Of a DNA stretch of 64,000 nucleotides, positions 4,345 through 21,129 are shown in pieces. The DNA is from a virus. The notes beneath the pieces are model-generated. The model saw only the letters and a program-made list of their open reading frames with translations. It was not told the DNA's origin and ran no database searches. The position numbers and the translations under genes are program-made. Each line of letters starts with the position of its first letter. Position 1 is the first letter of the stretch. The DNA is taken from the IMG/VR virus record IMGVR_UViG_3300042560_001981, positions 1 to 64,000 of that record, one strand, 5' to 3'.

Positions 4345-4509
4345 TTATATTTTGTCAAGGCCCTGTGGATCTTGTCCATTTTGTTTTTTCGCCTCATCTA
4401 AAACAGCCAGTAAATCATTCACCGGTATCTTATTCATACCCCAATAATCCGAATAAATCACCGTGGCCGTATTGGCCTCTTTTTTCGGAAATGGGATAAT
4501 ATTACTCAT
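4345..4509 (-). CDS. Small hypothetical protein
   Basis: 54 residues starting MSNIIPFPKK. A longer frame upstream is open, but this ATG overlaps the TGA of the preceding membrane gene (ATGA), which favours it as the real start. No domain recognised. The protein is soluble and Asp/Lys rich at the C-terminus. Confidence 0.55.
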   Translation of the reverse strand: MSNIIPFPKKEANTATVIYSDYWGMNKIPVNDLLAVLDEAKKQNGQDPQGLDKI

Positions 4510-4655
4510 ACCACGCTCGCCATAAACGCCGCTGCATTGGCCGCCGAGACCACCAAGGAAGACCATCCCAAGAAGTTCAGCTCTTCCATAAAATAATAAT
4601 CCGCTGCCCGCCAAAAAACAACCGCACAGAAAAGATTTACCATTAGCATTAACAT
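4506..4655 (-). CDS. Small membrane protein, 49 residues
   Basis: An AGGTGA ribosome binding site lies 5 bases before the ATG. The product is almost wholly hydrophobic in two stretches (about 1-20 and 26-49) separated by an acidic turn. The TGA overlaps the next ATG by ATGA. Function unknown; small size and coupling are typical of early phage genes. Confidence 0.55.
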   Translation of the reverse strand: MLMLMVNLFCAVVFWRAADYYFMEELNFLGWSSLVVSAANAAAFMASVV

Positions 4656-4663
4656 TTTTTCAC

Positions 4664-4891
4664 CTAGGTAAAGAAAGTGTCCACGATCCTCGGCGCTTCC
4701 AAACCAGAGACCTCAAAGACCTGTGCCTTTGCCACGGCCACCGAGATTTCCTCTTCATAGTCATTTCCATAGTAACACACCTCACGGAGTAAGTCAACAC
4801 ATTGACCCTCATTCTCCGCTACGGCCACCCATGATCCACCATACTCGGAAGATGGAAATGGTACCCAATAATTTCCTACGTATAGATTCAT
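4664..4891 (-). CDS. Small hypothetical protein
   Basis: 75 residues from the ATG at 4891, with AGGAG 8 bases upstream. A TTG one codon earlier is a less likely start. The ATG overlaps the stop of the upstream lipoprotein gene (TGATG). The product is acidic and rich in Trp, Tyr and Val, with no recognised family. Confidence 0.6.
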   Translation of the reverse strand: MNLYVGNYWVPFPSSEYGGSWVAVAENEGQCVDLLREVCYYGNDYEEEISVAVAKAQVFEVSGLEAPRIVDTFFT

Positions 4892-5040
4892 CAATCAATC
4901 TCCTTTTCTATATTCTTCTTGAGAAATACACGAGCAAATTCAACCTTGAATCCATCGATATCTCGCTTCATATCCTTCTGTGCCTCCTGAAAGGTAGTAC
5001 AACCACAGAGGAAGATAGAAAATATAATTAAGCCTCTCAT
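4891..5040 (-). CDS. Small predicted lipoprotein
   Basis: 49 residues. A hydrophobic start (RGLIIFSIF) ends in LCGC, which fits a lipobox with lipidation at Cys14. A short charged helix follows. It should be exported and anchored in a membrane. Its stop shares a base with the next ATG. No family recognised; it is too far from the lysis cassette to be called a spanin. Confidence 0.55.
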   Translation of the reverse strand: MRGLIIFSIFLCGCTTFQEAQKDMKRDIDGFKVEFARVFLKKNIEKEID

Positions 5041-5041
5041 A

Positions 5042-5266
5042 TTAATCCAGTAGTGTCATGTAGGCCTTAGTATTATTCTCCAGAAACCAATCGATACCTT
5101 TACGGAGACCAATGTAATCACCGAGCATCTCGCAGCCTTTGAGATAATCATAGACGGCGACTTCCTCGGGGGTTAACATAATGGACTCACCGGAGAATGG
5201 GTTGCTCACAGAAACATTCTCAGTGTCGTAAACTTGAATTCCTGGGAAATCATTGAAAATAGACAT
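5042..5266 (-). CDS. Conserved small protein of T4-like phages
   Basis: 74 residues. The pattern of an N-terminal strand region, then LTPEEVAVYDYLKG and a C-terminal FLENN, resembles short conserved proteins of marine T4-like phages of unknown function. AAGGA precedes the start. A four-copy 11-bp tandem repeat lies just upstream (5281-5324), so expression may be specifically controlled. Confidence 0.6.
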   Translation of the reverse strand: MSIFNDFPGIQVYDTENVSVSNPFSGESIMLTPEEVAVYDYLKGCEMLGDYIGLRKGIDWFLENNTKAYMTLLD

Positions 5267-12067: not shown

Positions 12068-12523
12068 TTATACAGATTCTTTACACACCAAATTGAGTAT
12101 GTCGAAACGTGTGGTATTTGGCACATTCAGAGGAACAACATGTGTATTGACTTCGTAGGTATTCCTAAAAATTATTTTATTAGTCTCATCAACATACATG
12201 TCCATGAGCAACATCAATTTTTGTTTACCGCAGTGTAGTGAACCGTAAACATATAATGCTTTCACAGGAACATCTGTGCCGTACATTTTCTCTGGAACGT
12301 GATATGGGACAAAAGCATGAAAACTAACCACTTCACCTTTTGTGCCTAGCATACCTTTCTCAATGTATATATCATAGTCATCGGACTTGACTACGAAATG
12401 CCAGTCGTTTTGATTATGAATAATTACATCATCTTTGGTAATATTCAGCGTGTATTCTTTCTGGCTGGCATAAGAGGAAGAGATGAGGAATAATGCCATG
12501 ATAAAAGAAAATAGATGTTTCAT
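12068..12523 (-). CDS. Secreted protein, surface-adhesin E-like
   Basis: 151 residues. A clean signal peptide (MKHLFSFIMALFLISSSYAS) is followed by a beta-rich domain: a WHFVV start, a YIEKG turn, a Cys in SLHCGKQKLML and a second Cys near the end. The layout resembles the surface-adhesin E family (PF16747) but I cannot confirm it. Together with the SNase it forms an exported pair. A late-type promoter motif lies 31 bases upstream of the ATG. Confidence 0.55.
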   Translation of the reverse strand: MKHLFSFIMALFLISSSYASQKEYTLNITKDDVIIHNQNDWHFVVKSDDYDIYIEKGMLGTKGEVVSFHAFVPYHVPEKMYGTDVPVKALYVYGSLHCGKQKLMLLMDMYVDETNKIIFRNTYEVNTHVVPLNVPNTTRFDILNLVCKESV

Positions 12524-12561: not shown

Positions 12562-13275
12562 CTAGTTCCAGTATTTGGTCCCGTCTAATCTATCCCAGTA
12601 TTCTTTGTTATTACGATTTATGAAGTTTTTGATGAGATATGCTGCCATGCCAAAGTAACCCATCTTTTTGAATCTGCGGGAATCTTGTCCAAAGTAGTGG
12701 TTGATAATCTCGAACTTTTCGGGACTGTACATTCTTGAGAGAAAGAAATCTTCTGAGGTGGTATAGTTCTCAGGAAAACCACCATATTCTTCAAACTTAT
12801 CTCTTCGTGTTAGCATAAATGCACCTACGGCAAATGGACTATATCTTTTGAGAATATTGTTTATAAAGTTAAACATCATAAATCCAAAACTTGCTCTCAA
12901 GTCCTTATCATAACAGTATATTTTAGCACCAACCAAATCCAAATCGTTGAATTCTAATTCATCAACAGCATCTCGAATCACATACTTATCTTGAAAACGA
13001 ACGTCGGCATCTATAAACAAAATATAAGGAGTGGTAACTAATTTAGCACCATTATTTCTAGCAATTGATACGGGACCACCCTCAATGATTTCGATATTCA
13101 AAGATTCACTATTATCTTTTATAACTTGTCGGGTATTGTCTGTAGAACAATCGGCAATAATGATTCTAGTTTTGCCGATTTTTTGTAGTTTGAGTGATGT
13201 GAGTAAATGAGGGATATACTCTTCTTCATTCTTGCAGGGTATTACAATCGTGATTTTATCGCTAAGTCCTATCAT
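12562..13275 (-). CDS. Family 2 glycosyltransferase
   Basis: 237 residues from the ATG at 13275, which overlaps the upstream stop by ATGA. It has the GT-A start ITIVIPCKNEEEYIPHLL, CSTDNTRQV and the metal-binding FIDADVRF. A late SEDFFLSRM provides the usual acidic acceptor-side motif. It transfers a sugar from a nucleotide-sugar, possibly to a lipid or polysaccharide at the inner membrane. The next known upstream gene is an LpxH-like hydrolase, which hints at lipid A or envelope modification (inference). Confidence 0.85.
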   Translation of the reverse strand: MIGLSDKITIVIPCKNEEEYIPHLLTSLKLQKIGKTRIIIADCSTDNTRQVIKDNSESLNIEIIEGGPVSIARNNGAKLVTTPYILFIDADVRFQDKYVIRDAVDELEFNDLDLVGAKIYCYDKDLRASFGFMMFNFINNILKRYSPFAVGAFMLTRRDKFEEYGGFPENYTTSEDFFLSRMYSPEKFEIINHYFGQDSRRFKKMGYFGMAAYLIKNFINRNNKEYWDRLDGTKYWN

Positions 13276-13433
13276 TTTTTCACACACTTTCCTTCTATTT
13301 TGAATGAATCAAACTTCAACCAGTAATTCATGCTTTGTAAACTTTTCTCGCAGGTAATTTGATCAGGATATTCCAGAGTTATTTTTCCTGGTATGTCCTT
13401 TGGATCGTTTAGGTGCACCGCTATCAATATCAT
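13272..13433 (-). CDS. Conserved small phage protein, 53 residues
   Basis: The frame begins within the end of the LpxH-like gene (71-base overlap) and ends in an ATGA overlap with the glycosyltransferase. The composition (MILIAVHLNDPKDIPG, two Cys, a C-terminal YWLKFDSFKIEG) matches a short conserved protein type of T4-like phages. Function unknown. Confidence 0.55.
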   Translation of the reverse strand: MILIAVHLNDPKDIPGKITLEYPDQITCEKSLQSMNYWLKFDSFKIEGKCVKK

Positions 13434-14193
13434 CAACCACATTGTCGCTCTCCTGTGTCCATGTTACTATTTCCCATCGACCATCATGATGCTCAACTAA
13501 TGCTGTCAACGATTCAACCCAATCACCATCATTCATATAAGTTACACCATCTATTTCTTTAATTTCTGCATGATGTATGTGACCACAGATCACGCCATCG
13601 TATCCTTTTTTCTTGCAATAACCTGCTAGATTTTTTTCAAATTGAAAGATAAAATCTACGGCTTTTTTTACCCTGTGCTTGAGAAAACGACTAAGGCTAA
13701 AATAACCAATACCAATTCTATGTAAGATCCAATTAAATTTATTATTAACTGATAAGATGCAATCATACGCTCTGTCTCCTAAAAATGATAGCCATGGTGC
13801 TAATCTTGTGATACCATCAAACAAATCTCCATGAATCACCAAATAATGTTTACCATCAGCACCGATATGCTCACATTGATTAACCATTTCTAACATACCA
13901 AAACTTAGATTGTATTGAAGAAATGGTCGGAGAAATTCGTCATGATTACCTAAAACGTATACTACACGTGTTCCCTTTTTAGCATGACCTAAAACACGAC
14001 GAACGACATTTGTGTGGCTTTGTTTCCAACGCCACTTGTTTTGTTTTATTTTCCAACCATCAATGATATCACCAACGAGATACAATGTATCACAAGTATT
14101 GTGTTTGAGAAAATTATTAAGAGCTTCAGCCTTGCAATCTTTTGTGCCAAGGTGAACGTCTGAAATAAAGATACTGCGATATGTTTTGTCCAT
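13363..14193 (-). CDS. LpxH-like metallophosphoesterase (UDP-2,3-diacylglucosamine hydrolase family)
   Basis: 276 residues from the ATG at 14193; a GTG at 14223 is also possible. Neither start has a clear ribosome binding site. It has the calcineurin-like set ISDVHLGT, VGDIIDGW, LGNHDE, IHGDLFD and CGHIHHAE. The last is typical of LpxH-related enzymes, which cleave UDP-diacylglucosamine to lipid X in lipid A synthesis. The phage copy may act on envelope precursors or on another phosphodiester. Confidence 0.8.
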   Translation of the reverse strand: MDKTYRSIFISDVHLGTKDCKAEALNNFLKHNTCDTLYLVGDIIDGWKIKQNKWRWKQSHTNVVRRVLGHAKKGTRVVYVLGNHDEFLRPFLQYNLSFGMLEMVNQCEHIGADGKHYLVIHGDLFDGITRLAPWLSFLGDRAYDCILSVNNKFNWILHRIGIGYFSLSRFLKHRVKKAVDFIFQFEKNLAGYCKKKGYDGVICGHIHHAEIKEIDGVTYMNDGDWVESLTALVEHHDGRWEIVTWTQESDNVVDDIDSGAPKRSKGHTRKNNSGIS

Positions 14194-14254
14194 AAGGGTT
14201 CTGGTTACGGGCTCCAGAGTCACCTGATTATTGTGACCGATTTTTAAGGGTTAC

Positions 14255-15661
14255 TTAGAAACTTAGTTGACTTCTAAACAATACTGCTTTGTCGCCATTT
14301 ACACGTGCGCCTGAACTACCGACTAGTGCATCAAATTTAGTGTCAACATAATTTATCATGAATCTAAGATTGTCGTTTACAAACCATGTCAATCCATATG
14401 TCATAGCAACTGCACGATTTGTTTTACCAGCTACAACTGTGATATTGCTGGCATCAAACTCACTGGCACGAACTCCAATTTGCCATGCACCGTTGCCACC
14501 TTTACCTACAGGATTATTTGGTTTGATCCAGTTGAACGCACCATCTTTGTAGGCATGATTTTCACCTGTAATATTATAAAGTGCTTGTACATAGTAACCT
14601 TTGATTTTTTGGTCATTACCTGTCGTAGGATCATATGTAAAATCAAAGTATTCACCTTGTACTTTTGCACCTTTGTATGCCAATGCTGCTTCAAGACCTG
14701 CACGTGTTCTTTCAGTAGAACCACTCAATGCAGGACCAACAAACCAACTGCTCTGTGTCCTTGCTTCAGTGCGACCACTTGATGGCGTTACACCACTCTT
14801 GATTGTACCAATGCTATAAGCCGCACCCAAGTGAGCAACAACTTCTTTATTACCAGCAAGTTCAGCTAGATTGGTGGTAACACGACCAATGTAATCAAAG
14901 TTATCATTGATAGCATCTTTGTTACCACGACCACGGCTAACTGCCAATTGATAAGTTAGACCCGACACAGGAACACCATGCAACATAAAGCCAGTTTCTT
15001 TTGCAGGAATCAATTCACTGTCATTCTGCCCAATCAAACTACGCTCCATGAAATCAATATTGTTTGAACTGGTCATTTGTTCAAGACTGAATGGCATTTT
15101 GAATAGTCCAAACTGAAATTGCATTTCAGGATTAGCGGCATAGTTTACCCACATCTCATCCATTGTACTCGAACTTGATGAAGCACCAACATCATTACCA
15201 AAGTTTGCAAGCAATTGATACTTGAAGTCTTTATTGAACTGACCACGCACACCAAATCTAGCACGGCGAACTTCTGCTAGGTTCTGATACGAATCCGTGG
15301 TTTGACCGACACCGTAATCTGGTGTGTAGTGTCGATAGTCCATATGTAATCGACCTGTAAATTGGGCAGTCGTGTTACCATCTTTGGATTTGAGTCCAAG
15401 TCCGTTTTCTGTGACTGCTCCATCGTTTGCTCTTGCTTGTCTATACTTGACTGAATCGCTAACGTCTTTGTCGATTCTTCTTTCAGCAAACTTTTTGTTT
15501 TCTTCTTTTTCTTCATATGCTTTGAGTTTATCTTCATATTCTTGTTGAGTGATTACATTCTTCTCTCTCAGAATATTCAGTGTGTCTTTATACTCATCAG
15601 CATATGCTGGAATCACTGCTGCTAAAGCAACTACAATAGAAAGTTTTTTTAATAATTTCAC
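14255..15661 (-). CDS. oprP-like: Phosphate-selective porin, OprP/OprO family
   Basis: 468 residues. A signal peptide (about 1-21, ending AYA) precedes a short helical stretch with coiled-coil character (about 22-66). A long beta-barrel region with alternating strands follows and ends in SQLSF, the terminal-Phe signal for outer-membrane assembly. Length, N-terminal helix and barrel features match PF07396 porins, which pass phosphate or polyphosphate through the outer membrane. The gene sits 9 bases after pstS, so porin and binding protein are almost surely co-transcribed. Exact ion selectivity is not provable from sequence. Confidence 0.85.
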   Translation of the reverse strand: MKLLKKLSIVVALAAVIPAYADEYKDTLNILREKNVITQQEYEDKLKAYEEKEENKKFAERRIDKDVSDSVKYRQARANDGAVTENGLGLKSKDGNTTAQFTGRLHMDYRHYTPDYGVGQTTDSYQNLAEVRRARFGVRGQFNKDFKYQLLANFGNDVGASSSSSTMDEMWVNYAANPEMQFQFGLFKMPFSLEQMTSSNNIDFMERSLIGQNDSELIPAKETGFMLHGVPVSGLTYQLAVSRGRGNKDAINDNFDYIGRVTTNLAELAGNKEVVAHLGAAYSIGTIKSGVTPSSGRTEARTQSSWFVGPALSGSTERTRAGLEAALAYKGAKVQGEYFDFTYDPTTGNDQKIKGYYVQALYNITGENHAYKDGAFNWIKPNNPVGKGGNGAWQIGVRASEFDASNITVVAGKTNRAVAMTYGLTWFVNDNLRFMINYVDTKFDALVGSSGARVNGDKAVLFRSQLSF

Positions 15662-15670
15662 GATATATCC

Positions 15671-16696
15671 TTATTTCCAAATTGGGTTGTTATCTGGTCC
15701 ACGGAAGTCTTTCTTCCAATTTTCTTGTACTAACTTGATTACATCGGCAGGCATATGAACATATTCCAATTCTGTTGACATTTGGCCACCATTCTTGTAT
15801 GACCAGTCAAAGAATTTGAGAACTGCACGACCTGTTAATGTATCTGCTTGTTGTTTGTGCATCAGAATAAAACTTGCACCTGTTGCTGGCCATGCATCTT
15901 TACCTGTCTGCCATGTAAGCAACAAATACATTCCTGGTGCATTGTTCCAATCGGCGTTTGTTGCTGCTGCTTTGAATGTGGAATCATCAGGCAATACAAA
16001 AACACCATCACGATTCTTCAACGAAGCAAATGCAATTTTATTCTTTTTAGCATATGCATACTCAACATAACCAAATGCACCTTTGACACGTTGAACATTG
16101 GCTGCAACGCCTTCATTACCTTTGCCGCCTACACCAGTTGGCCATTTTACTGCTGTGCCTTCACCAACAGTTTTCGCAAACTCAGCATTTGCTTTGCCCA
16201 AGAAATTTGTCCAGATGAATGTAGTACCCGAACCATCTGCACGATGAACTACAGTGATGTTCATGGCAGGAAGATTCAAACCAGGATTCAAATCAGTAAG
16301 TGCTTTGTCATTCCACTTTGTAATCTTACCAAGATGAATGTTTGCAATAATTTCTGGTGTCAGTTTCAATTGTCCTGGAGCAATACCATCAAGATTGAAT
16401 ACTGGTACAACACCACCAATGATTGCTGGAAATTGAACAAGACCTTCTTTATCCAATTCTTCTTTCTTGAGTGGCATATCACTTGCACCAAAGTCAACTG
16501 TTTTTGCCTTGATTTGACGAATACCACCGCCACTACCAATTGATTGATAATTTAGACCAATGCCAGTTTGTGCTTTATATGCTTCAGCCCACTTTGCATA
16601 GATTGGAAATGGAAAAGTCGCACCAGCGCCAGTGAATTCTGCTGCTGATACGACTGAAGATACTGCTAATAGAATAGATGCTAAAAACTTCTTCAT
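15671..16696 (-). CDS. pstS: Periplasmic phosphate-binding protein PstS
   Basis: 341 residues with a signal peptide (about 1-18). It has family motifs AEFTGAGATFPFPIY, SIGSGGGIRQI, FGASDMPL and HRADGSGTTFIWTNFL, the last near the phosphate-binding loop. It delivers phosphate to the host PstCAB transporter. pstS is a known auxiliary gene of T4-like cyanophages and pelagiphages, where it supports growth under phosphate limitation. Here it leads a two-gene unit with an outer-membrane phosphate porin. A palindromic sequence lies 39-54 bases upstream. Confidence 0.95.
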   Translation of the reverse strand: MKKFLASILLAVSSVVSAAEFTGAGATFPFPIYAKWAEAYKAQTGIGLNYQSIGSGGGIRQIKAKTVDFGASDMPLKKEELDKEGLVQFPAIIGGVVPVFNLDGIAPGQLKLTPEIIANIHLGKITKWNDKALTDLNPGLNLPAMNITVVHRADGSGTTFIWTNFLGKANAEFAKTVGEGTAVKWPTGVGGKGNEGVAANVQRVKGAFGYVEYAYAKKNKIAFASLKNRDGVFVLPDDSTFKAAATNADWNNAPGMYLLLTWQTGKDAWPATGASFILMHKQQADTLTGRAVLKFFDWSYKNGGQMSTELEYVHMPADVIKLVQENWKKDFRGPDNNPIWK

Positions 16697-16726
16697 GTTA
16701 TCTCCTATGGTTAGACTACTAAAATT

Positions 16727-16752
16727 ATTCTAGTGTAACGGAACCGTCACAA
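16727..16752 (-). promoter_or_regulatory. Palindromic element and -10-like box upstream of pstS
   Basis: GTGACGGTTCCGTTAC (minus strand, 16735-16750) is a 16-bp imperfect palindrome with one mismatch. TAGAAT follows at 16727-16732. TTGTGAC and CCGTTAC are 11 bp apart, the spacing of PhoB half-sites, but each matches the Pho-box half CTGTCAT at only 4 of 7 positions. Either a phage operator or a degenerate Pho box is possible. Confidence 0.35.
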
Positions 16753-16809: not shown

Positions 16810-17802
16810 TTACGCTGCTTTACCCCAAACTTCTTCCCAATTACCAGTCAATGCACCTTTGGCATAATCTGTAGCTCTGTTCTCAAAGAAATTCGTATGA
16901 GTTGGAGCATTAATCATCTCCTCAACCCACGGTAAAGGATTTTTCTTTACCTTGAAAATCCCTTTAAGACCAAGAGAAATAAGACGGCGGTCAGCAATAT
17001 AGCGAATATAACGCTTAACATCTTCTGCATCTAGATTCTCCATAGAACCCATTTGGAATGCTAAATCGATGAATTTATCTTCAAGTTCAACCATTTTCTC
17101 AGCAATGGTATAAATTCTAGATTTTAATTCATCGTTCCAAATTTCTTTATTTTCCTCTATGTAGGTTCTGAATAATTTAATCATTGATTCAGCATGCTGT
17201 GTTTCATCAACGATAGACCAAGTAACAATTTGGCCCATACCTTTCATTTTCCCATGCCTAGGGAAGTTAAGTAACATGATAAAGGAACTGAATAATTGCA
17301 TCCCTTCGGTGAAAGCAGAGAATACTGCAATATGAGTAGCAGTAGAAGCAACATCGCCATTCTGTGCGCTAAGATCAAGTACGTAATCATGTTTGTCTCT
17401 CATCGCCTGATATTCTAAGAATTGATTATACATTGCATCAGGCAGACCCAATGTTTCAATAAGGTGTGAGTAAGCAGCAATGTGTAATGCTTCACGAGCA
17501 GCAAAGCCTAGAAGCATCATACGAACTTCTGGTTGTGGAAAATATGGTAAATAGTTTTTGACATAACCACCAGCAACATCGATATCACCTTGTGTAAAGA
17601 AACGGAAAATATGAGTAAGAAATTGTTTTTCTTCTGTCGTTAATTTATTTTTCCAATCTTTTACATCTTCAGCCATAGGAACTTCCGTGTGAAGCCAGTG
17701 ACTTTGTTCATGTTTCAACCAAGATTCATAGGCCCAAGGATAGTGAAAAGGTTTATACGATGATCTTTCATCTGTTAGTTTGCTAGCGGTTTTTTTAGTC
17801 AT
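16810..17802 (-). CDS. nrdB: Ribonucleotide reductase class I small subunit
   Basis: 330 residues. The di-metal ligands include REALH (E104, H107) and the later DETQHAE. Tyr111 lies at the position of the radical Tyr122 of the E. coli enzyme (ExxHxxxY). The protein makes the radical that NrdA uses to reduce ribonucleotides. It overlaps the thioredoxin gene by 8 bases, so reductant and enzyme are translated together. nrdA lies 1.5 kb upstream in the same operon. Confidence 0.95.
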   Translation of the reverse strand: MTKKTASKLTDERSSYKPFHYPWAYESWLKHEQSHWLHTEVPMAEDVKDWKNKLTTEEKQFLTHIFRFFTQGDIDVAGGYVKNYLPYFPQPEVRMMLLGFAAREALHIAAYSHLIETLGLPDAMYNQFLEYQAMRDKHDYVLDLSAQNGDVASTATHIAVFSAFTEGMQLFSSFIMLLNFPRHGKMKGMGQIVTWSIVDETQHAESMIKLFRTYIEENKEIWNDELKSRIYTIAEKMVELEDKFIDLAFQMGSMENLDAEDVKRYIRYIADRRLISLGLKGIFKVKKNPLPWVEEMINAPTHTNFFENRATDYAKGALTGNWEEVWGKAA

Positions 17803-18052
17803 CTCCGTTTATCCATTCCTTTATTTGTGTTGGTGTCATTACACCAGTTTTTCTTTTAATTACATTGTTTGATTCATCTACCATTACTAAAGTGGGAATA
17901 TTTCTTATTCCGTATTCCATGGCAATATCTGGATTTTTATCGATATCAATCACTTCAATCGATACGCCACTTGTATCGGTTTGGCCTAAGTTTGCGGCCA
18001 TACTTTTACAAGGTCCGCACCAGTCTGCGGTGAATCTAATAATTTTTTTCAT
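17795..18052 (-). CDS. Thioredoxin/glutaredoxin-like protein
   Basis: 85 residues from the ATG at 18052, with GAGGAA upstream. The active site is WCGPCK near residue 12, and the cis-Pro loop is NIPTLVMV. It lacks extra domains. Likely electron donor to the phage ribonucleotide reductase, between whose two subunit genes it lies. Confidence 0.9.
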   Translation of the reverse strand: MKKIIRFTADWCGPCKSMAANLGQTDTSGVSIEVIDIDKNPDIAMEYGIRNIPTLVMVDESNNVIKRKTGVMTPTQIKEWINGDD

Positions 18053-18053
18053 A

Positions 18054-18692
18054 TCATTCCTCATACATGACGGTATTTGTGTCGCCTAATGCCCATTTTG
18101 GATTTTGTTCTACAACATATTTCTTTGTGCAAACTTTAAAGTCTGGAAACTTCAATTGTTTAGGATTACTTGCTGCATCTAAAAACAGGCAACGATTATT
18201 TGGCTGTGCAGCAAATTGACCGTTATCTAGTTCAATGAAATTGAAACTTTTATGATCTTCTGGCCATTCAGCATAACTTGTATCAATAATATTCAAATCT
18301 GGCGCTGAATGGTCTACCGTAAACAAGTAATTGCCTTGATAGAACTGTTTATCTTTAGCATAAAACTTTGCTGTTAGATTTCTCAGAAAGGCTTTTTGTA
18401 TTACAGTAAAGTCATAACTGAAACAATCCCAAATCTGTAACGTATCTAGAGGTAAAAACTTCTTAGGGTCAAGATTCTCTGAGCGTGATACAAACGCATG
18501 GAGAGGTAGTTTGTCATAAATTGCGCCATAGTTTGGTAAGTATGCCTCTATTCTAAATGCTTGACCACGGATGCTTTTAAGTGTCACCCATATACAAGGC
18601 TCATAATCTCCATGACCTTTCTCAAAATCATAAAGAAACTCTTTGCGTATATAACAGTGTACTGGTGGTATGTTTGCAACTAAATGTGCCAT
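18054..18692 (-). CDS. Conserved phage protein of unknown function
   Basis: 212 residues without signal peptide or membrane span. It has many aromatic residues and a beta-rich look. Its fixed place inside the nrdA-nrdB operon, between an amidotransferase-like protein and thioredoxin, suggests a metabolic role, but no catalytic motif is clear. Confidence 0.65.
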   Translation of the reverse strand: MAHLVANIPPVHCYIRKEFLYDFEKGHGDYEPCIWVTLKSIRGQAFRIEAYLPNYGAIYDKLPLHAFVSRSENLDPKKFLPLDTLQIWDCFSYDFTVIQKAFLRNLTAKFYAKDKQFYQGNYLFTVDHSAPDLNIIDTSYAEWPEDHKSFNFIELDNGQFAAQPNNRCLFLDAASNPKQLKFPDFKVCTKKYVVEQNPKWALGDTNTVMYEE

Positions 18693-19331
18693 TTATTTTT
18701 CCATTAGTTTGTTCACGAATTCTTTTAACATAACATGATGCCGGCCTTCATGCCAATGTCTGTGTAGATAAGGTTTGTTGTACCAAAATTCTTCCGCTTC
18801 TAAATGTGGACCTATTAATCCTATTCTACCTTGAATGATCGCTGCTGCATCACCATTCGAGTATCTGGCGACAACATCGTAGTATTCTGGATTTCCGACA
18901 AATGCAGTTCCATCATAAAAGAAGAATCTGTCTGGTACGCCATTCCAGTCACATTCAATTGCTTTGGAGTATGATCGCCTTGTGCAAGTATTCGGTCGTT
19001 TGATGTATTGGACGGCGTTTGCTCCGTACAGAAGATTAAAATAATCAGGCCCAGCCCAATAGGCACCCATACAGATACCAAGATATCTTCCACCATTTTT
19101 GATGTAGTCGGTGATAAGACGCCCATGAGACTTGAAATATGTGTCATAAGAATCAACATCACCGACCCCGCCAGGAAAACATACGAGGTCGACAGAATTA
19201 AAAAAGTCGTTTTCGATTTCATGTTTAGTAAATAATTTATAGGTGTAATCTGAGCCAAGTGCTTTGATTATACCATTGCACGATTGAACTGAACATCTAG
19301 GATGTTGAACAAATAGAGCAATGGTGGGCAT
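18693..19331 (-). CDS. Glutamine-amidotransferase-like / BPL_N domain protein
   Basis: 212 residues. VCFPGGVGDVDSY and LGICMGAYWAG (nucleophile elbow with Cys) match the class I glutamine amidotransferase-like fold of the biotin-protein-ligase N-terminal family (PF09825). A His-rich late region (LHRHWHEGRHH) may supply the catalytic His. The reaction is unknown. Located directly after nrdA in a nucleotide operon. Confidence 0.7.
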   Translation of the reverse strand: MPTIALFVQHPRCSVQSCNGIIKALGSDYTYKLFTKHEIENDFFNSVDLVCFPGGVGDVDSYDTYFKSHGRLITDYIKNGGRYLGICMGAYWAGPDYFNLLYGANAVQYIKRPNTCTRRSYSKAIECDWNGVPDRFFFYDGTAFVGNPEYYDVVARYSNGDAAAIIQGRIGLIGPHLEAEEFWYNKPYLHRHWHEGRHHVMLKEFVNKLMEK

Positions 19332-19332
19332 T

Positions 19333-21129
19333 TTAACCTTCGCAGGCTAAACAAACTTCTTCGGTTGCTAAGGCTTTCAGGTCAATTTCTTCGATTACTT
19401 TTCTTTCGATTCTTTTCGAAACTTTATCCGCTTTCGCCAGTTTCTCTGAGCGGCAATAGTAAAGCGTTTTAAGACCTTGTTTCCAAGCTTGAAAATGAAC
19501 GGCATGTAGGTATTTGATATTTACATCAGGTCTAAAAAAGAGGTTAATGGATTGCGCCTGGTCAATGTAACTTTGTCTGTTAGCGGCGTGGTCCACAACC
19601 CATCGTTGGTCAATCTCCATACTAGTTTTGAACACATTTTTTGTCCATTCATCCAAGAATTCCAAATGCTGAACGGAACCATCGTTTGCAATGATACTTG
19701 ACCAGACTTCTTGGTAATCCAGTGATTTGCCTGCATCACATTTCTCCTGAATAATTTTATCAAGATATTTATTTTTGTTTAAGTGTGCTCCAGAAAGAGT
19801 ATCTTGGCGATAGGCATTTGCACGATAAGGCTCAACAGAAGGGCTAGTGTTGCCCATGATAATGCTGCTAGAAGCATTAGGAGCAATGGCCATAAGATGG
19901 CTGAAGCGTAAACCGGTGCCCTTAGCATCCGGTGCTTCGCCTCGTTCACTGCCAAGTTTAACATTCGCTTCATTTAATTTCTCTCTGATATTTTTGAACA
20001 TCTTGTTGTTTACACCCGTTGCTAACGCCGACTCAAACGGTATGTTATGTTTTTGTAGATAAGCATGAAAACCAAGAGCCCCCACACCGATGCTGCGCTC
20101 TTGCTGAGCAGAGTACCTGGCTCTAGAAATGTAATCAGGAGCGTTGTCAATAAAGTGCTGAAGTACATTATCCAGCATCTCGGCCACGTCCCGAAGAAAA
20201 AGTTCATTATCTTTCCACTCATCATAATACTCCAAATTTACAGACGAAAGACAGCAAACTGCGGTTCGCTCTTTATCTGTAGGTAAAATAATCTCACTGC
20301 ACAGATTTGATTGCTTGATGCTCAGACCTTTTTTCTTTTGAAACTCTGGCATCATACGATTACTTGTATCGATAAAATGAATGTATGGTTCGCCAGTTTG
20401 CATACGAATGTCAAGAATTCTTTGCCATAGTTCTTTAGCAGAAACCACTTCACGAACTTCATCGTTATGTGGATCAATCAGTTCCCAATCATCATTAGCA
20501 TTTGAATCTTCCATGCAAGTTTGAATTAATTGCATGAATTTATCTGTGATATTAATTCCGTGATGTAAATTCAAACAACGAAGATTGGGGTCACCCGTGG
20601 GCTTTCTCATTTCCAAAAATAAAAGAATATCAGGATGAGATATGTCAAGGTAGGTAGCATAAGAGCCACGGCGTGTTCGGCCTTGTCTGTAGGCCAATGA
20701 TGAAGCATCGTAAGTACGTAAGTGAGGCATAATGCCAACGGACTTATCATCAGCAGAACGAATACCCAATCCAATTCCAACGCCGCCTCCTAACATTGAT
20801 AACCAGTTTACTTCCGACAAAGTATCGACCAAACCTTCCGCACTATCATCAAGATAAGGGAGAAAACAAGAGATAGGAAGACCACGCTTACTGCGGCCAA
20901 AACTAAGAATAGGAGTAGAATAAGAAAGCCAATGCTTAGAACTATAGTTATACAGGCGTTGAGCGTGTTCAATATCAGAGCTAAAAGCTTTTGAAACATA
21001 TGCAAACCTTTCTTGAGGAGAAACTTCAGTCTCTCTCATATAACTCTCTTTTAATCTTTTAATTCCAAGTTCATCGAATAAACTATCTCTCGAATAATCT
21101 ACTACAATTCCGTTTACGATATCTTCCAT
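19333..21129 (-). CDS. nrdA: Ribonucleotide reductase class I large subunit
   Basis: 598 residues, shorter than the 761 of E. coli NrdA because the N-terminal ATP cone is missing. It would therefore lack the usual dATP off-switch. Substrate Cys in GLPISCFL, the N-C-E motif in SNLCSEI, the partner Cys in AVCCLSSVNLE, and the C-terminal CLACEG pair are all visible. Makes dNDPs for phage replication with NrdB (16810-17802) and the thioredoxin. Confidence 0.95.
   Translation of the reverse strand: MEDIVNGIVVDYSRDSLFDELGIKRLKESYMRETEVSPQERFAYVSKAFSSDIEHAQRLYNYSSKHWLSYSTPILSFGRSKRGLPISCFLPYLDDSAEGLVDTLSEVNWLSMLGGGVGIGLGIRSADDKSVGIMPHLRTYDASSLAYRQGRTRRGSYATYLDISHPDILLFLEMRKPTGDPNLRCLNLHHGINITDKFMQLIQTCMEDSNANDDWELIDPHNDEVREVVSAKELWQRILDIRMQTGEPYIHFIDTSNRMMPEFQKKKGLSIKQSNLCSEIILPTDKERTAVCCLSSVNLEYYDEWKDNELFLRDVAEMLDNVLQHFIDNAPDYISRARYSAQQERSIGVGALGFHAYLQKHNIPFESALATGVNNKMFKNIREKLNEANVKLGSERGEAPDAKGTGLRFSHLMAIAPNASSSIIMGNTSPSVEPYRANAYRQDTLSGAHLNKNKYLDKIIQEKCDAGKSLDYQEVWSSIIANDGSVQHLEFLDEWTKNVFKTSMEIDQRWVVDHAANRQSYIDQAQSINLFFRPDVNIKYLHAVHFQAWKQGLKTLYYCRSEKLAKADKVSKRIERKVIEEIDLKALATEEVCLACEG

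Follow-up and report, generated by a model that had tools for sequence, protein, structure and literature searches.

The viral record IMGVR_UViG_3300042560_001981 of IMG/VR, 69,263 bases long, carries a unit of four genes on its minus strand. These are pstS for a periplasmic phosphate-binding protein, a gene for an outer-membrane porin of the OprP/OprO type, a plcP-type metallophosphoesterase gene and a gene for a glycosyltransferase of family 2 (GT2), and the unit is preceded by a direct repeat resembling a Pho box (Table 1). The window, the stretch analysed here, comprises positions 1 to 64,000 of this record. A sequence-only reading of it had described a T4-like phage with pstS and, nine bases further on, an OprP/OprO-type porin ending in Phe; these assignments stand, but the unit it drew, of pstS and porin alone, was too short, as genes for a predicted PlcP-type phospholipase and a glycosyltransferase follow downstream on the same strand. 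The kind of phage is borne out by matches in the window to T4-type replication families, namely PHROG 168 (clamp loader, E=8e-127), PHROG 223 (processivity factor, 7e-67) and PHROG 19 (helicase, 6e-129), which we take to be gp44-, gp45- and gp41-like; one head-and-packaging PHROG was also matched. The pstS and porin genes are both intact, an AAGGA motif overlaps the pstS stop codon, and the signal peptides of both products were judged by eye. The plcP open frame extends upstream to a GTG at 14223, and GT2 has an alternative GTG start at 13287, the choice of which sets the gap between plcP and GT2 at 75–87 bases. The G+C content of the module stretch lies inside the range of the window.

Table 1. 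Features of the four-gene unit in the window
Feature	Position	Strand	Remarks
Pho-box-like direct repeat TTGTGAC-GGTT-CCGTTAC	16735..16752	-	38 bp before the pstS start; 11/12 half-site positions, spacing 11
pstS, periplasmic phosphate-binding protein, 341 amino acids	15671..16696	-	NCBIfam PstS equivalogs, PHROG 5385, PDB PstS
Porin_O_P (OprP/OprO-type) outer-membrane porin, 468 amino acids, GTG start, C-terminal Phe	14255..15661	-	PF07396, fold model
plcP-type metallophosphoesterase, 275 amino acids from ATG	13363..14190	-	predicted to act as phospholipase C in lipid remodelling under phosphate starvation; 55% identity to a P. aeruginosa protein
GT2-family glycosyltransferase, 237 amino acids from ATG	12562..13275	-	PF00535, E=3.6e-24; predicted PlcP partner

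The PstS assignment is firm, since the protein passes the cut-offs of two NCBIfam equivalog models (PRK10918, 417.9 bits against 339; TIGR00975, 365.7 against 205), and solved PstS proteins in the PDB match it near full length (E=2e-113). Its pairing with the porin was followed through IMG/VR, where all counts refer to the nearest relatives, the best 80 of each ranked search; some loci are the same contig fetched more than once, for which counts of clusters at 95% identity allow. A first scan found 59 loci with close porin relatives, and pstS lies directly upstream in 59/59, five of them cut by a contig edge. A profile scan yielded 112 relatives of the porin; the best 80 were kept, and among the 78 loci that were new pstS is directly upstream in 77 and broken in the other, L225. 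When all phage loci with a complete porin are clustered at 95% identity, pstS precedes the porin in 53/53 clusters, the broken copy of locus L225 included. Seen from the pstS side (best 80 of 325 relatives), a porin follows at E<=1e-3 in 77/80, counting a 47-residue piece at the contig end in L113; none follows at that threshold in L085, L105 and L122. The genes flanking the pair vary between phages, which suggests that selection, not shared synteny, holds the two together. The pair had been called unusual. This is true of the 50,697 INPHARED phage records, where nothing matches the porin at E<=1e-3 and PstS matches 90 records, mostly cyanophages, all below 60% identity (best 51.9% among those listed), but not of IMG/VR, where the pair is present in every porin cluster fetched. 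Apart from a 23% match in L154, the window PstS has no counterpart at E<=1e-3 in the fetched flanks of 28 bacterial porins (up to 8 kb per side, many shorter), and pstS–porin therefore looks like a phage arrangement.

The pair is not built identically everywhere. In L225 (1049–3267) pstS is ended by a stop and fused to a porin frame without its first residues, which reflects either a deletion in the phage genome or a chimeric assembly. The spacer between the two genes grows to about 60 bases in L003, L004, L024 and L034, where a terminator-like hairpin and boxes like TTGACA and TATAAA can be made out by eye, and L045–L048 have a different hairpin at this place; in phages with such hairpin or promoter-like spacers the porin dosage may be set separately. 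In L085, one of the porin-less phages, a PhoH-like gene (4369–5211; PF02562, 170.8 bits against 27) stands behind pstS.

The sole Pfam match of the porin at E<=0.01 is PF07396 (E=8.6e-47, 160.6 bits against a cut-off of 20.9), and OprP and OprO are its nearest PDB relatives by sequence (E ~6e-19). An AlphaFold2 model built from 48 aligned phage and bacterial rows, from which the partial, over-long or distant sequences of L156, L161, L162, L163 and L167 were left out, reached a predicted local distance difference test score (pLDDT) of 82; an earlier model from 27 phage rows (pLDDT 54.5) was set aside. Among the structures matched by Foldseek, the model is closest to OprO and OprP (Z of 40.8 each) and to an OprO mutant (40.7), followed by general porins at 25.4 or less, and OprO and OprP superpose on it with a root mean square deviation of 2.4 over 366–367 residues at 25% identity. 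The OprP residues R34, R59, R60, D94 and R133, which we take to be those of its constriction, are conserved in 25/25 phage and 23/23 bacterial porins aligned, while the positions of OprP Tyr62 and Tyr114 are held by Arg and Lys in all 48 rows. Family and fold are those of OprP/OprO, as first proposed, rather than of another barrel family, and basic residues are present at the constriction.

The third gene of the unit is filed in public records under another name, as proteins of its type are called UDP-2,3-diacylglucosamine diphosphatase or hydrolase, the lipopolysaccharide (LPS) enzyme LpxH. We rejected LpxH for the window gene. It misses the NCBIfam cut-offs for LpxH (43.5 bits against 134, and 33.2 against 190.35), and four bacterial genomes with a true LpxH above cut-off also hold a PlcP-type paralogue, which the phage protein matches at 52–53% identity (E ~1e-80), as against 28–29% (E ~1e-3) for the LpxH paralogue in two of these genomes and no match to it in the other two. 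Its 55% identity to the P. aeruginosa protein extends over 243 residues, and it has the metallophosphoesterase motifs DxH, GDxxD, GNHD, HGD and GHxH like the P. aeruginosa protein, as read from the L250 protein, which is identical to that of the window. The gene for that protein precedes those for a family-1 glycosyltransferase and an adenylate cyclase; we take the first two to be PA3219 and PA3218, numbers that are not in the record. In a tree, the phage PlcP proteins come together, separate from bacterial PlcP, with moderate support (84/75), and LpxH falls far outside; long-branch warnings were raised, and the duplicate rows L409–L412 were dropped. The window metallophosphoesterase is by these comparisons of PlcP type, a predicted phospholipase. 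A distant PlcP/LpxH-like gene (39%, annotated UDP-2,3-diacylglucosamine diphosphatase) occurs in the freshwater cyanophage isolate Synechococcus phage S-SRM01 (L248), near psbA pieces and endonuclease genes. For bacteria, PMC4796936 describes plcP as often in an operon with a glycosyltransferase, and PMC8528852 reports that MGDG was lost under phosphate stress in plcP (PA3219) and agt1 (PA3218) mutants.

The phage genes keep that order with two different partners. IMG/VR holds at least 595 PlcP relatives, of which the nearest 80 loci were analysed. Directly downstream of PlcP lies a GT2 gene in 42 and an Agt homologue in 28, with neither in six and a contig end too soon in four, which gives a glycosyltransferase in 70/76; the corresponding counts for 61 PlcP clusters at 95% identity are 29, 23, five and four. 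Seen from the glycosyltransferases, plcP is directly upstream of gt2 in 70/71 loci with enough sequence (eight more began too close, and L032 was left out of the 80) and directly upstream of agt in 72/76 (four more began too close), so that GT2 looks like a dedicated partner of PlcP. The phage Agt is of GT4 type and shares 37% identity, across 327 residues, with the glycosyltransferase that follows PlcP in P. aeruginosa. The window enzyme was also considered as an Agt homologue and rejected, as it belongs to the GT2 family and Agt homologues replace it in other phages. Relatives of the window GT2 elsewhere are remote: the sole match among plasmids at E<=1e-10 is 28.8% identical, the phage records gave two partial matches, and a match at E<=1e-3 is present in 239/369 genomes from the bacterial class, which is unsurprising for so common a family and goes no higher than 36% identity (over 174 residues). 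Among the conserved stretches of the window protein are a DxD-type site and the motif QDSRR, reminiscent of the QxxRW signature of GT2 enzymes acting on lipids and polysaccharides.

Several arrangements unite import and salvage genes, including pstS-porin-plcP-gt2, plcP-gt2-pstS-porin, pstS-porin-plcP-agt, plcP-agt-pstS-porin, pstS-plcP-agt and plcP-agt-pstS, and the recurrence is in freshwater-type phage contigs. That they are joined in differing orders argues for a common purpose. We consider it likely that the unit is a phosphate-starvation module of the phage, induced by the host's PhoB and combining phosphate import with salvage from membranes. It could be instead that import is the work of pstS and porin alone and that the metallophosphoesterase and GT2 have an unrelated task, such as modifying LPS or O-antigen against superinfection. 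Among PHROGs, the window GT2 is indeed matched best by a GtrB-like family of O-antigen conversion (E=4e-9), the records name PlcP-type genes after an LPS enzyme, and pstS–porin pairs without plcP in the fetched flank are found (L006, L008–L019, among others). Against this, the sequence marks the gene as PlcP-type and LpxH as a separate paralogue, the alternative phage partner of PlcP is an Agt homologue, and many phages have separate Pho-box-like repeats before plcP. We regard this division of tasks as unlikely.

These repeats are a further feature that many of the phages share. Many have two half-sites like [CT]TGTNA[CT], 11 bases apart, before pstS. For counting, 160-base upstream regions were clustered at 85%, and a region was accepted if 11 of 12 half-site positions agreed at spacing 11; the test of plcP covered records other than the named ones (such as L247 and L249). 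The threshold is reached before pstS in 25/38 clusters, and in none at spacings of 10 or 12. Before plcP it is reached in 43/88 regions, made up of 34/72 where plcP does not stand behind a porin and 9/16 where it does, with one and no case at spacings of 10 and 12 in each set. Controls gave 0/32 for internal porin genes, 0/52 for internal gt2 genes and 1/139 for six other genes. A TAAATA follows 11 bases behind the box in 20/25 pstS and 20/34 plcP cases; its place would suit a -10 element in a promoter activated by PhoB, and it also resembles the core of T4 late promoters. Scored against the E. coli consensus, the phage regions shift modestly (mean 8.9 against 7.8 of 14). The window repeat is not significant by itself, and the case for PhoB thus rests on the phages as a group.

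The bacterial relatives of the porin come from a similar setting. Those nearest, at 47–54% identity, are from Burkholderiaceae, Oxalobacteraceae, Burkholderiales and Polynucleobacter metagenome-assembled genomes, and among 294 genomes from the family of genome G003 the porin has matches at E<=1e-3 in 21. In one bacterial locus (L142) the porin gene is divergent to ppx-like, phoX, olsB-like, plcP-type metallophosphoesterase and MGDG-synthase-like genes. PhoX, Ppx-GppA and MGDG_synth exceed their Pfam cut-offs, the NCBIfam matches stay below theirs (OlsB 161.6 against 350, best Ppx 282.6 against 307), and the metallophosphoesterase is about 51% identical to phage PlcP; by predicted function these neighbours are a set for phosphate starvation and phosphate-free lipids. 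The porin tree, a quick one supported by the Shimodaira–Hasegawa-like approximate likelihood ratio test (SH-aLRT) alone and with long-branch warnings, unites the 25 phage porins in a single clade (SH-aLRT 100) that joins those of Burkholderiaceae, Oxalobacteraceae and Polynucleobacter. This would agree with a single ancient gain from a Burkholderiales-like freshwater donor, and Burkholderiales porins are the likely donor clade that the sequence-only reading had proposed to seek by such a tree. The median ratio of nonsynonymous to synonymous substitution rates, dN/dS, over pairs with dS of 0.1–1.5 is 0.13 for the porin, 0.10 for pstS, 0.09 for plcP, 0.08 for gt2 and 0.17 for agt, and with values this low the five genes are under purifying selection.

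A phage porin might also serve another end, as a decoy or replacement of a receptor for superinfection exclusion. The lambdoid phage PA-2 is a precedent for a phage-borne porin gene, outer-membrane porins are common phage receptors, and porin-like proteins exist in other viral records; Siphoviridae sp. ctBLh2, for instance, has a protein in BFVD named phosphate-selective porin O and P, matched by Foldseek at E=8e-19 and 16% identical to the window porin. A nutrient channel is nevertheless the far better fit, as pstS is paired with the porin in every cluster fetched and often has Pho-box-like repeats upstream, the fold is that of OprP/OprO, and relatives in bacteria belong to a phosphate-starvation locus; the decoy is improbable. 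Still harder to credit is that host genes were drawn into a mis-assembled or mis-binned contig. The genes are of host type and the records metagenomic, but T4-type genes flank the module in the window, the same pairing recurs in many contigs, phage copies group apart from bacterial ones and the G+C content is unremarkable for the window. The gp44 clamp-loader family is strong in 12 of 21 carrier contigs (five at E<1e-120, seven at 1e-71 to 1e-79), weak in six and not found in three; it adds little here, as its model also matches all 14 cellular controls, although the spread hints that the carriers span more than one phage group.

Phosphate genes are already known from phages, so far mostly pstS, phoA and phoH, and pstS of T4-like cyanophages is an established auxiliary metabolic gene. 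Like the window gene, the cyanophage pstS encodes a phage-borne phosphate-binding protein of PHROG 5385; the window pstS differs in heading a four-gene unit whose porin is unmatched in the 50,697 records at E<=1e-3. With OprP and OprO of P. aeruginosa the phage porin has PF07396, the fold and the constriction residues in common; it departs from OprP at lysines 121 and 126 and in its Arg and Lys at 62 and 114, and it is phage-borne and coupled to pstS. The bacterial PlcP–Agt remodelling system (Phaeobacter; P. aeruginosa PA3219-PA3218) has the same order of plcP and glycosyltransferase, a PlcP 55% identical and Pho-box-like repeats, whereas the phage version is joined to pstS and porin, and its partner in the window is a GT2 for which plasmids and the 369 genomes yielded no close bacterial relative. 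Among isolates, Pelagibacter phage Mosig EXVC030M has a gene for a PlcP homologue (47.7%) and, divergent from it, a PstS-family-like gene whose annotation reads putative phosphate ABC transporter. It has no porin match, and its plcP, annotated as a putative UDP-2,3-diacylglucosamine hydrolase, is followed by genes for a hypothetical protein and a 2OG-Fe(II) oxygenase. Words for these genes do not occur in the Mosig genome paper (PMC7892664), and a search of the open PubMed Central literature turned up neither a phage OprP-type porin nor a phage PlcP–Agt module.

Around the unit, 16810–21129 on the same strand holds the genes for the small and large subunits of ribonucleotide reductase and a thioredoxin-like gene, directly upstream; adjacency of nrdB and pstS recurs in part of the related loci. 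A BPL_N/glutamine-amidotransferase-like protein encoded within this stretch (18693–19331) recurs near modules in many phage loci, also adjoining plcP or the porin. Behind the unit lies a gene for a 151-residue protein (12068–12523) with a signal-like start and no match in Pfam, PHROG or NCBIfam, relatives of which follow the porin-less pstS of L105 and L122. The spacer between porin and plcP (14191–14254) is conserved in L005, L031, L044, L084 and L123 as GGTCAC..GGTGAC..CTGG..CCGTAACCAG, with two short possible hairpins by eye, and plcP of these phages is without a strong Pho-box-like repeat.

Several observations weigh against a PhoB-induced module of import and salvage. No pstS lies in the fetched flank (up to 4 kb) of 60 of the 80 nearest PlcP loci, six of the 76 informative PlcP loci have neither glycosyltransferase behind, and the GT2 of the window is no homologue of Agt. 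The half-site rule was set after the sequences had been viewed. In the window itself, the repeat before pstS scores 11/12 but is one of five such sites, it reaches 8/14 against the E. coli consensus (shuffle p=0.70), there is no TAAATA behind it, and plcP has no such repeat of its own (8/12). Five bacterial spacers beside the porin score 9–10/12 and the Mosig spacer 8–9, which does not confirm the same repeat there. The Mosig binding protein is of another PstS subfamily (143 bits against a cut-off of 206.6) and 27% identical to the window PstS, and that phage is for this reason a weaker parallel. As for the porin, K121 and K126 of OprP, presumably its channel lysines, are replaced by Gln and Asn in 25/25 phage rows, and members of Porin_O_P may transport other solutes. 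The arginine ladder that the sequence-only reading had suggested looking for gives a mixed picture. At R218, R220, R222 and R226, which together with R242 we take to form the loop ladder of OprP, the aligned residues are G, T, S and T, and R242 meets a gap; the loop alignment is gap-rich and uncertain, and two near-invariant arginines of the phage porin, R297 and R301, adjoin the aligned ladder positions. By alignment and model, then, the protein has the family, fold and core site of OprP/OprO without being OprP in every feature. With the channel lysines absent it is filed as Porin_O_P and not as OprP, and with no arginines aligned to the ladder either, its predicted selectivity for phosphate rests on genomic context and the constriction site.

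With these points weighed, the preferred reading of a host-induced module for import and salvage would run as follows. In phosphate-poor water the host's PhoB, active through starvation, would bind the Pho-box-like repeat and switch on the phage genes. The porin would increase the passage of phosphate across the outer membrane, and PstS would bind it and pass it to the PstCAB pump of the host, the joint role in uptake that had been proposed from the window and that the family assignments and linkage now support as a prediction. PlcP would cleave host phospholipids, with phosphate-containing head groups set free and diacylglycerol left behind, to which GT2 would add a sugar, keeping the membrane intact until lysis. 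The phosphate gained would go into phage DNA. Phosphate is thought to limit phage yield in poor waters, and a benefit to yield might follow. A wider generalisation, that freshwater phages hold a complete PhoB-responsive phosphate-starvation programme, that GT2 is a new family of diacylglycerol glycosyltransferases replacing Agt and that viral genes filed as lpxH are plcP, seems to us as apt to fail as to hold.

Related observations come from other systems: PMC12282109 describes changes in phospholipid metabolism at low phosphate in Pseudoalteromonas virocells, and a table of PMC9611531 lists an lpxH among the auxiliary genes in a viral-fraction metatranscriptome of Lake Baikal. Viral genes reported as lpxH, as in that table, could be plcP, and their role would then lie in phosphorus cycling instead of LPS synthesis. 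If the preferred reading is true, the phage taps the phospholipid pool of a cell about to lyse and alters the membrane of the infected cell, and viral lipid remodelling of this kind would be directly testable by lipidomics.

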